DNA from: Chitinophagaceae bacterium | GTDB taxonomy: Bacteria > Bacteroidota > Bacteroidia > Chitinophagales > UBA10324 | Length of the DNA: 64,000 bases | NCBI GenBank assembly: GCA_947474435.1 | Contig: CANJII010000013.1 | Coordinates: 1-64,000, forward strand | Direction of reading: 5' to 3' | Shown: positions 60,737 through 63,639 of the stretch, one piece after another | Layout: the number at the start of each line of letters is the position of its first letter | Numbering within the stretch: the first letter of the stretch is position 1 | Translations under genes and position numbers: made by a program | The notes under the pieces: generated by a model | Database searches by the model: none | Told to the model about the DNA's origin: nothing | Seen by the model: only the letters and a program-made list of their open reading frames with translations

Positions 60737-62233
60737 TTAAAATTTTGCCGAGGCGGTTCCTCCGGCTGTAATGTTAATGAGTTGTTCTTTTGTATCGGTA
60801 GTTTTTTTCGACATTTTTGATCTGAAAACTATTTTGTAAGTGCCGGGCTGCAACGCTATTGTTTCCATTCCGCCGAATCCATTGAGTGAATAAATTTTTT
60901 GCCAGTTGGTACCGTTAAGCCAAAGAATTCCTCCATAACCCGGAACTGTTTTTTGTATGGATAATACTCCGGGAGTTGGAATTTCAATGGTTGTGGTTTT
61001 ACTCTGAGCGATGTCAATGTTGTTCAACCTTGTTCGGGGCAGCGTGAGAAATTCCAGATCATATTTTCCGCAAATTAATTTTTGAGTCGAATTTATTTCC
61101 TGCACACTTACTGTTCCATATTTATCACTTTGCTTTACTAGACATTTTATTTTGCTGTTGATGTTGTTGTTAATTGTTTTCCCTTGCAGTTTTATAAATA
61201 AAAATCCTTGCGGTGCTGGAACATTCACTTTATTAATACTCTTGGGTGCAAGTTCAATGTCTTTCAGTTCAACTGGTGGGGTTGTTTGCACCACTAAATT
61301 ATATGCACTTACAGGATCAAGATTTACAGTATCAGAAATTCCTTTGTAATTAAGTGTATGAGTATAGTTGTATCGGATAGCTCCGCTGCGGTTATCGTAA
61401 AAAGTCATGACAGCATCTGTCTCCGAAGCATTGCTATTTATATCAAGCAGATTAACCTGTATGAAAGTTGGATTGAGTGCTGCATTTAAAATTTGTTGCA
61501 TTGCATTTTTAAATCCTTGCGGGTCTTGCGCATTATAAAATGCACCCATGCATTGCAAATTAGCAACAATTGAATTATCAGCATTCAACCCAATGATGAA
61601 CGGTCGAAGGAACACTCCGTTTTTTTGTAACGCAAGCGAAACCGCACATGGATCAGTATCACAACTTTCAGCGCCATCAGTAATTAAGATTAAAATATTT
61701 CTTGTGTTAACATCTTTCGGAAAATCATTCGCTGCTTTTTCCATCGACATGCTGATTGGAGTAATTCCCATTGGCTCCAGATTTTTCAATGATTCTTTTA
61801 TGATACCTGCATTATTACCCCCAAATGGCACCAGCAATTTTGTATCGTAACAATCATTCAATGAAGCAATAGTTTGACTGCCGTACACACGCAATCCCAA
61901 TTCAATATTCGGTTTGCGTTTGAGTGTATCAATAATTTCTCCGAGAATTCTTTTCGCCACATCCATGCGCGGTTCATTTCCCCACGACACCATCATGCTT
62001 GATGAGGCATCAACTAAAAATAAAATTCTTGTGACTGGAGCGGCCGTTACAGTTTGAGCGGAGCTCTTCGACAAGCTCAGAGTGACAACTGCGAGTGAAA
62101 AAATAAAAGCGAAAAATGCGCTTCGCAGTTTCGGTTCGTGGGGAGACGGAACGAGGCAAAGACAAATGCTCTTCGACAAGCTCAAGGTGACAGCTGCAAT
62201 TGAATTAATAAAAATGAAAAAATTCGTTCTCAT
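60737..62233 (-). CDS. Exported von Willebrand A protein with repeat-derived signal region
   Basis: 498 aa. The N-terminal ~65 residues are unusual: two hydrophobic stretches ('FFIFINSIAAVTLSLSKS', 'FFAFIFSLAVVTLSLSKSS') each end in 'VTLSLSKS', the translation of a REP-like repeat, before 'AQTVTAAP'. Next is a VWA domain (about 67-260) with the MIDAS motif 'LFLVDASSSMM', 'PMGITPISMSMEKAANDFP' and 'ILITDGAESCD'. Residues about 270-498 are beta-sandwich units shared with the upstream gene ('IQVNLLDINSNASETDAVMTF', 'LNPDP'-type loops). It overlaps the upstream VWA gene by 4 bp (ATGA) and precedes the transketolase subunit gene by 3 bp. Confidence 0.85.
   Translation of the reverse strand: MRTNFFIFINSIAAVTLSLSKSICLCLVPSPHEPKLRSAFFAFIFSLAVVTLSLSKSSAQTVTAAPVTRILFLVDASSSMMVSWGNEPRMDVAKRILGEIIDTLKRKPNIELGLRVYGSQTIASLNDCYDTKLLVPFGGNNAGIIKESLKNLEPMGITPISMSMEKAANDFPKDVNTRNILILITDGAESCDTDPCAVSLALQKNGVFLRPFIIGLNADNSIVANLQCMGAFYNAQDPQGFKNAMQQILNAALNPTFIQVNLLDINSNASETDAVMTFYDNRSGAIRYNYTHTLNYKGISDTVNLDPVSAYNLVVQTTPPVELKDIELAPKSINKVNVPAPQGFLFIKLQGKTINNNINSKIKCLVKQSDKYGTVSVQEINSTQKLICGKYDLEFLTLPRTRLNNIDIAQSKTTTIEIPTPGVLSIQKTVPGYGGILWLNGTNWQKIYSLNGFGGMETIALQPGTYKIVFRSKMSKKTTDTKEQLINITAGGTASAKF
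62063..62116 (-). repeat. REP-like repeat copy B in VWA signal region
   Basis: On the minus strand it reads TTTTTCGCTTTTATT, then TCACTCGCAGTTGTCACTC, then TGAGCTTGTCGAAGAGC. It aligns over 54 nt with copy A (62168-62221), and the GAGCTTGTCGAAG core is the same as in ctaA at 16.88 kb. Placed just before the probable signal-peptide cleavage site. Confidence 0.8.
62168..62221 (-). repeat. REP-like repeat copy A in VWA signal region
   Basis: On the minus strand it reads TTTTTCATTTTTATTAATTC, then AATTGCAGCTGTCACCT, then TGAGCTTGTCGAAGAGC. The left part codes the hydrophobic run and the right part the 'LSLSKS' run. Between A and B lie about 51 nt ('ICLCLVPSPHEPKLRSA'), itself with a GCCTCGTTCCG / CACGAACC pattern. 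Confidence 0.8.
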
Positions 62234-63582
62234 AGTTTCACCTGAATAGTTTTGTTTGATGAAACAGTAAATACTTTTTGCTGGGTAAGGTTGGCGCGCT
62301 TTCCTTTATCAGGACGGAAAATCAAAATGTATTCGCCTGGCTGCACCTGCAAACTCACATTTGTTTTCAGTGCATTGAAATCATAAACTTTTGTGAGTGC
62401 ATTATTTTCTTTTACAAATAAAGCTGCAACAACCAACTGCATTGGCTGAAGTGTAACAGTGCCCGGAACTAAAATATGAACTTCGGTTTCGGGTGACTGC
62501 TGCATGCGCACCCCGTATTTATATATTCTTGGAACAGTGAGAATTTCAAAATCATAATCACCGGCTAAATATTTTCTGGTAGAATTAAAATCCTGTACAT
62601 ATAAAATTTCTTCCGTGCCGACTTTTCGAACAATGCATTGAACAGGAGTGTATGAATTTGTTTGTCCGTCAATCACCAAATTCAATTTTCCCTGCGGCAC
62701 ATCCAATGCGATCATGTTGTGTTTTCCCGGAAGCAATTCAATATTATCTTTTCTTACCGGTGGGAAAGTGTGTACAACCAAATCGTATCTTCCTTTCGGG
62801 TCGAGTCGAAGTGTATCGGGAATTCCCTGTGCATCCAATGTGTGCACGAAATTGAAAAGCGTTTTGTGCGAGTAGTGGTCGAGGAAACTCATTTCCACAT
62901 TTGTTTCGTTCGGCATTCCGTAAGCATCTAATAAATTCACCTGCACCGTTGTTCGGTTCAAAGCTTGTTTTATAACTGCATTCAATACACCACCAAATTC
63001 ATTTTCATCTGCCACATCGTAATAAGTTCCGAGGCAGTTGAAGAATTTTTTCAGCGAATCAGTAATTCCTAACCCAACGATAAATGGTTTGAGTGCAATT
63101 TTTTTTTGTTGAAATAATTCAGCAAGGTCGCATGGATTTCCGCCGCAGGTTTCTATTCCATCTGTAATTAAAATAATAGAATTGTATGCATTTGAATCTT
63201 TCGGAAAATCATTCAATGATTGTTCGAGCGCATAGGTGATTGGTGTTTGGCCCTGAGGATTTATTCGGTTGAGTGCGAGTTTAATATTTGCCGAATTTTT
63301 TTTCGCGAATGGAACTTCGAGTTTCGTGTCTTTACAATTATTTTGCACCTTCGGATATTGATGCCCGACAACACGCAATGCAAATTCAACTTTCGGATTG
63401 GTGCGCTCCATACTATCAATAAACGAAACGAGAATATTTCCGGCTAATTCAAACTTCACTTGTTGCTGAAATTTTTGTTTCATGCTTCCGCTTCCATCGA
63501 GAACAATTAATACGCGGGAAGTTTGTGCGAAATTTTTTTCAGCACATAAAAAAATAATAACAAAAAGTAAAATTCTTTTCAG
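62230..63582 (-). CDS. Exported von Willebrand A protein, probable CTG start
   Basis: The track starts at Met34, but the frame is open upstream and gives 'KRILLFVIIFLCAEKNFAQTSRVLIVLDGSGSM', a signal peptide joined to the VWA MIDAS motif DGSGS. The only sensible first codon there is CTG at 63582-63580 (ahead of AAA AGA), and no ATG, GTG or TTG lies between it and the upstream in-frame stop. The gene would then encode 450 aa. The VWA domain continues through 'PQGQTPITYALEQSLNDFP' and 'ILITDGIETCGGNPC'; beta-sandwich units like those of the next gene follow. Overlaps the next VWA gene by 4 bp (ATGA). Probably surface or periplasmic binding proteins. Confidence 0.75.
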   Translation of the reverse strand: MKRILLFVIIFLCAEKNFAQTSRVLIVLDGSGSMKQKFQQQVKFELAGNILVSFIDSMERTNPKVEFALRVVGHQYPKVQNNCKDTKLEVPFAKKNSANIKLALNRINPQGQTPITYALEQSLNDFPKDSNAYNSIILITDGIETCGGNPCDLAELFQQKKIALKPFIVGLGITDSLKKFFNCLGTYYDVADENEFGGVLNAVIKQALNRTTVQVNLLDAYGMPNETNVEMSFLDHYSHKTLFNFVHTLDAQGIPDTLRLDPKGRYDLVVHTFPPVRKDNIELLPGKHNMIALDVPQGKLNLVIDGQTNSYTPVQCIVRKVGTEEILYVQDFNSTRKYLAGDYDFEILTVPRIYKYGVRMQQSPETEVHILVPGTVTLQPMQLVVAALFVKENNALTKVYDFNALKTNVSLQVQPGEYILIFRPDKGKRANLTQQKVFTVSSNKTIQVKL

Positions 63583-63639
63583 GTTTCGAAGGAGTTTATT
63601 TGAGAACGAAAAAAACCGAATTCAATTGTGAAATTATTT

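Follow-up and report, generated by a model that had tools for sequence, protein, structure and literature searches.

Two hydrophobic units in the signal region of a VWA gene

The window, that is, the whole stretch of 64,000 nucleotides that was analysed (positions 1 to 64,000 of contig CANJII010000013.1, from a Chitinophagaceae bacterium), carries on its reverse strand a gene for a VWA-domain protein whose N-terminal signal region houses two copies of a short palindromic element. A third copy lies far away on the forward strand. The features are as follows.

60737..62233, (-) strand: gene for a VWA-domain protein of 498 aa, with both units in its signal region (ORF; Pfam VWA/VWA_2; orthologues in five congeners)
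62168..62221, (-) strand: unit 1, FFIFINSIAA followed by VTLSLSKS (repeat search and N-terminus comparison)
62169..62192, (-) strand: element copy 1, TGTCACCTTGAGCTTGTCGAAGAG, read as VTLSLSK (core match in the window)
62120..62167, (-) strand: linker ICLCLVPSPHEPKLRS between the units (sequence comparison)
about 62124-62156, (-) strand: decayed copy, within the linker, of a second dispersed palindrome, GGTTCGTGTCCTCACGAACCGAAACTGCG (same sequence outside the VWA gene)
62063..62116, (-) strand: unit 2, FFAFIFSLAV followed by VTLSLSKS (repeat search and N-terminus comparison)
62064..62087, (-) strand: element copy 2, TGTCACTCTGAGCTTGTCGAAGAG, read as VTLSLSK (core match in the window)
62054..62062, (-) strand: Ser-Ala-Gln, the predicted signal peptidase I site, A59/Q60 (sequence; Q-rule of Bacteroidetes, PMC5837995)
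16872..16893, (+) strand: third copy in the window, read as CHPELVEG in a COX15/CtaA-like protein, and not in a signal peptide (Pfam for the orthologue in congener G002)

The initial annotation had described two 54-nt units at 62063-62116 and 62168-62221, each including the core and the hydrophobic-coding part before it, and a repeat search of the window returned exactly these two. They are 83% identical, lie in frame at a spacing of 105 nt, and are composite, with about 24 nt of element joined to about 30 nt of signal-peptide DNA. The predicted pre-sequence reads MRTNFFIFINSIAA-VTLSLSKS-ICLCLVPSPHEPKLRS-AFFAFIFSLAV-VTLSLSKS-SA|Q, which makes 59 residues with the glutamine at position 60, in place of the 65-residue signal region first suggested. 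The two-unit protein is most likely exported and cleaved at the predicted site SSA|Q, past the second hydrophobic segment, where the small residue at -3 is encoded by the last codon of the element. A true start at the second hydrophobic segment, which would have left the preceding part untranslated, had also been envisaged; it does not fit the gene, because the annotated start codon shares an ATGA with the stop of an upstream paralogue, and the only other in-frame starts in the first 60 codons are three TTGs, all within the elements. Comparison of the window's genome (G000) with congener G005, between which there are no indels here, gave a pN/pS of about 1.0 for these 60 codons against 0.06 for the remainder of the gene, which shows that the residues of the signal region are under little constraint, as fits a loosely constrained region. 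The upstream VWA paralogue has, at 63528-63606 of the window, no in-frame ATG, GTG or TTG ahead of its signal peptide (NLKRILLFVIIFLCAEKNFAQ), while its orthologues in congener G003 and in the outgroup G010 begin with TTGCTGAAAAA; here the start may be a CTG, or may be damaged.

A dispersed, REP-like hairpin element

There are three copies of the core 13-mer of the element, GAGCTTGTCGAAG, in the window and 31 in the genome of 3.5 Mb, whereas the same letters reversed, as a control, do not occur in that genome at all, so that the core is a dispersed repeat and no chance match. From 159 copies in three species, each with at most two mismatches, the consensus of the 24-nt element is TGTCANNCTGAGCTTGTCGAAGN'N'. 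Its two variable stem positions are complementary to the two bases that follow AAG in 143/159 and 147/159 copies, with all four pair types well represented at the inner position. Such covariation in the predicted stem shows the element to be a genuine hairpin. The reading of the two units as REP-like copies lying in frame within the VWA signal peptide, with VTLSLSKS encoded twice, is thus borne out, the palindrome being dispersed and covarying and both units lying inside the ORF. A T precedes GTC(A) in 152 of the 158 copies tallied for this position. With up to two mismatches allowed there are 48 copies in the window's genome, 108 in G002, 42 in G004, 37 in G005, 13 in G003 and 7 in G001. The sense frame, GTC ACN CTG AGC TTG TCG AAG N'GN, encodes V-T-L-S-L-S-K-[S/C/G]. 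Inverted pairs of the element also occur, and at one locus of G002 (L339, G002:C351:100-4100) at least eight elements are clustered in 4 kb.

In being a short, dispersed, palindromic unit the element behaves as a REP, and it carries at one end the terminal CGTC (or TGTC) of the CGTC-tagged REPs, a class that occurs in Bacteroidetes and whose tag is often TGTC (PMC3733652). It resembles these, but lacks their 8-9 bp stem and 4-5 nt loop starting with A-T pairs: the stem is broken by a 5-nt bulge, TGAGC, and many stems begin with AC or AG rather than AT. Because of this interruption it is called REP-like here, and is not filed as a member of the class. The concentration of in-frame copies in secretion signals is likewise a property of the present element, the term 'signal peptide' being absent from the text that describes the CGTC-tagged REPs. 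The palindromic elements of Rickettsia (RPE) are also mobile palindromes, tolerated in frame in many protein genes; they are, however, 105-146 bp long and lie in various proteins (PMC2229807), whereas the element described here is only some 24 bp in length and favours signal peptides. No paper mentioning the core 13-mer was found.

History of the VWA signal peptide among congeners

The VWA N-termini of six species (the window's genome and five congeners) were compared, with G010 as outgroup, an alignment that the initial annotation had proposed. There is no element in the VWA gene of G010. G001 has a single clean, short copy (MRNCFFILIGSIAIVTLSLSKSVAQ), and G003 a single decayed, short copy at the same place (VTLGRSKSSAQ). 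The two-unit arrangement of the window recurs in G005 and, with a third palindrome inserted, in G002, while G004 keeps the linker and the second unit and has no first element. In G002 the first unit retains its own c-region and first mature residues (SIAQTTT), and is similar to the other units in the element and c-region only. The palindrome of the linker (GGTTCGTG..CACGAACC) is common to the VWA genes of G000, G005, G002 and G004, and its sequence is also found outside the VWA gene, at G000:C86:2792 and G003:C5:1735. The third palindrome, GTTGTTGGTCNNNNGACCAACAAC, accounts for the extra VWA insert of G002 and G004 (TAVVGRLTNN), and is not present in the VWA gene of the window's genome. It has 14 copies in G002 (for example at G002:C148:10829; one is also found at G005:C56:749), and adjoins RAYT-like genes at the loci L104 and L109.

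VWA distances are 0.096 between G001 and G003, 0.18-0.19 from either of these to the other four species, and 0.09-0.12 among the four; the history given here is based on these distances, the tree of the VWA gene having left forks open. The comparison shows the one-copy signal peptide as the simpler state and, in four species, a longer form that includes an extra palindrome. The simplest history is one in which the element would have been inserted into the VWA signal peptide in the ancestor of the genus, and signal peptide and element together would then have been duplicated in the ancestor of G000, G005, G002 and G004, with the GGTTCGTG..CACGAACC palindrome in the linker, the outcome being a tandem hydrophobic pre-sequence. 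To judge from the N-termini, the element is already in place before the duplication. The duplication step itself is probable, and rests on the identity of 24/36 bases between the hydrophobic parts of the two units.

That the element inserted twice independently, each time at the end of one of two unrelated hydrophobic segments whose likeness reflects convergence on T-rich codons, is the leading alternative and an unlikely one. A similarity of 0.67 between the units does fall inside the range for unrelated signal peptides, at its upper edge, but when codons of matching composition are shuffled, only 0.01-0.03% of trials attain it (P = 0.00025 for the window's genome and 0.0001 for G005), and the single copies of G001 and G003 are similar to both units (0.56-0.72).

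Recurrence in signal peptides, dispersal and proposed selection

A search for the element followed by NNNGCNCA gave 24 matches in five of six congeners, and none for the control. Twenty of these matches, representing ten genes, are the N-termini of long ORFs, all of them with VTLSLSK or a near variant; they include orthologous copies, so that the counts are not independent. The ten genes encode the VWA protein, an amidohydrolase, a subtilase, a DUF4271 protein, two sortilin-like or related proteins, a GH2 enzyme, a glucosaminidase-LysM protein, a type IX cargo and a protein without a Pfam match. With two further genes (L357; L224, in UBA10324), at least 12 different signal peptides of the genus carry the element directly ahead of an 'xAQ' site, and read VTLSLSK[S/C/G/N] or a near variant. 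Signal peptides were identified visually, from their n-, h- and c-regions and AQ; on inspection, the filled N-termini have the positive n-region, the hydrophobic h-region, the small residues at -3 and -1 and the glutamine at +1 of Sec/SPI signal peptides under the Q-rule. The usual cleavage site in Bacteroidetes is A|Q (PMC5837995), and the element ends two residues ahead of it, in keeping with ordinary Sec/SPI substrates, the difference being that here a repeat supplies the hydrophobic end. For four genes, filled and empty alleles are found among sister species, the empty ones having ordinary signal peptides: thus MKKIIFLFLLSLI-VTLSLSKC-IAQSE in G002 is matched by the empty MKKIIILFLSVLFSINLFAQSD in G003. 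Filled signal peptides exceed empty ones by 0-6 residues, not 8, so that the old h-region has been partly lost, or replaced.

In a scan of 84,980 genomes for the element with xAQ, 108 stretches matched and 80 were examined; among these 80, clear Sec signal peptides containing the element were confined to relatives of the genus (L190, L213, L218, L223, L224, L239). The others were for the most part accidental frames or REPs in different contexts, in Novosphingobium, Rhizobium, Chloroflexi and further groups. In-frame palindromic repeats are known, as is one repeat-built signal peptide, that of Yersinia RU-2/YPAL in YPO1552 (PMC2759123). There, however, a single main locus is involved, whereas here there are at least 12 genes, filled and empty alleles and a filter on variants. 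In a literature search, with most subscription papers outside it, no report was found of a repeat recurring in signal peptides or of a filter on stem variants, and both look new.

The position of copies was surveyed in stretches fetched from three genomes, containing 159 copies, 112 of which as listed have no ORF of 110 aa or more across them. There are 17 distinct genes with a believable in-frame copy: in nine it lies in the signal peptide, in four in a C-terminal type IX sorting domain and in four elsewhere. Even granting every gene a signal peptide of 30 codons, nine of 17 corresponds to a binomial P of 2e-6. Matches at L013, L020 and L306 were chance matches to the element pattern inside ordinary genes, and were set aside. 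The copies in signal peptides are of one frame, one orientation and one stem-variant class. There are 17 such copies; all of them end in S, C, G or N, compared with a small-residue ending in 79 of the 142 other copies (Fisher P = 1e-4), and all 17 have T as second residue, compared with 52/142 elsewhere. The copies outside signal peptides have I at this position in 43/142 cases and end in D in 26 and in H in 16; no D- or H-ending variant, whose last residue would fall at -3 relative to the cleavage site, is present among the 17. Such a variant filter is expected if selection maintains a working signal peptide: V-T-L-S-L-S would extend the h-region, K would fall at -4 and the last codon would give the small residue at -3, while the host sequence would supply xA|Q.

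Dispersal of the element, its residence in frame, its filled and empty alleles and the variant filter are direct observations. The reading that we favour, with a probability of roughly 80%, is that the element disperses as a mobile REP-like repeat and that selection retains the copies in export signals, the duplication in the VWA gene having followed. Insertions would arise widely, probably through a REP-associated tyrosine transposase (RAYT), and selection would remove other frames, positions and variants; the safe harbours would then be signal peptides and, less markedly, type IX C-terminal domains. As in known REP/RAYT systems (TnpA-REP, NCBIfam NF047646), the genus encodes RAYT proteins, and inverted pairs of the element occur as well: RAYT genes over the NCBIfam cut-off are present in G002, G003 and G004, the window's genome has RAYT homologues below the cut-off only (62.8 bits against 80), and some RAYT-like genes (L097, L103, L105, L109) have elements no more than about 1.2 kb away. 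The likeness stops short of the gene arrangement, since none of the RAYT-like genes inspected is tightly flanked by the element on both sides.

That the pattern reflects instead a preference of the element for target sites at T-rich, early transcribed signal-peptide starts, with selection playing a minor part, is rather improbable. In its favour, the DNA 5' of the signal-peptide copies is rich in T, and the core is followed, at the third base, by C in 11/16 of them compared with T in 33/56 elsewhere. Against it stand the single frame, orientation and stem-variant class, and the location of most copies outside genes. The initial annotation had gone further for the VWA gene, in proposing that a repeat unit took up the signal-peptide sequence beside it and moved with it by transposition to a second position, so making the tandem h-region. 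Its duplication of signal peptide and element is the part most likely to stand; the part in which the repeat captures and spreads signal-peptide DNA is very improbable. The VWA units do align over 54 nt, and their h-region parts are more alike than shuffled codons, but the h-region DNA of the VWA gene is not carried by any other copy in the genome: among the copies listed with their 30 nt upstream, a set largely complete for three genomes, there is no common h-region sequence. Moreover, different signal peptides that bear the element are no more alike in their flanks (median identity) than the background, the linker between the units holds a different palindrome family, and the first unit of G002 includes the c-region and SIAQTTT, as would be left by plain duplication of a whole signal peptide. 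Spread of the element by recombination as a signal-peptide cassette, not as a REP, can be rejected as barely credible despite its presence in at least 12 signal peptides, since likeness ends at the element edges, the flanks are not common, and most copies (112/159 listed without an ORF of at least 110 aa) lie outside signal peptides.

Signal peptides change quickly, and where they came from can seldom be traced. In the present case the source of half of such a peptide is legible base by base, and sister species offer filled and empty alleles for comparison. This allele set makes testable how export responds once the end of an h-region has been replaced by a selfish repeat. It also suggests a reason for the survival of intragenic REPs, namely that a protein segment has to accommodate the peptide encoded by one particular stem variant. 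A 'VTLSLSK' near the N-terminus of a database entry can accordingly be true signal-peptide sequence, and is not always the mark of a mis-annotated start. Whether palindromic repeats find a general safe harbour in export signals (Sec signal peptides as well as type IX sorting domains), one that an element mimicking a signal-peptide end has used repeatedly in this genus, so that it would now supply functional halves of many signal peptides and could, as in the VWA gene, multiply them, we put at about even odds.

The type IX C-terminal sorting domains bearing the element are at L016 and L024 (G000) and at L335 and L346 (G002); PF18962 was confirmed by Pfam for L016, L024 and L346, and L335 was assigned by eye. 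In these domains the element is read as LRQAQ or FDKL, in a loop ahead of a strand ending D-x-L/F-G-R (or similar). The four in-frame genes outside export signals encode two glycosyltransferases, an AIRS protein and COX15/CtaA, and in the G002 copy of the last (L329) the element is followed by a second, partial copy (HPELVEGHPELVERS). In one glycosyltransferase, L014:866-2074 in G000 and L340:929-2125 in G002, the element lies near the same codon in opposite orientations (AGILRQAQDE vs IVTLSLSKNE), which suggests either two insertions or inversion at one site. Another glycosyltransferase (L299 in G004, L340 in G002) contains an in-frame inverted pair of elements (NAVTLSLSKSVIPVDANILRQAQDDK).
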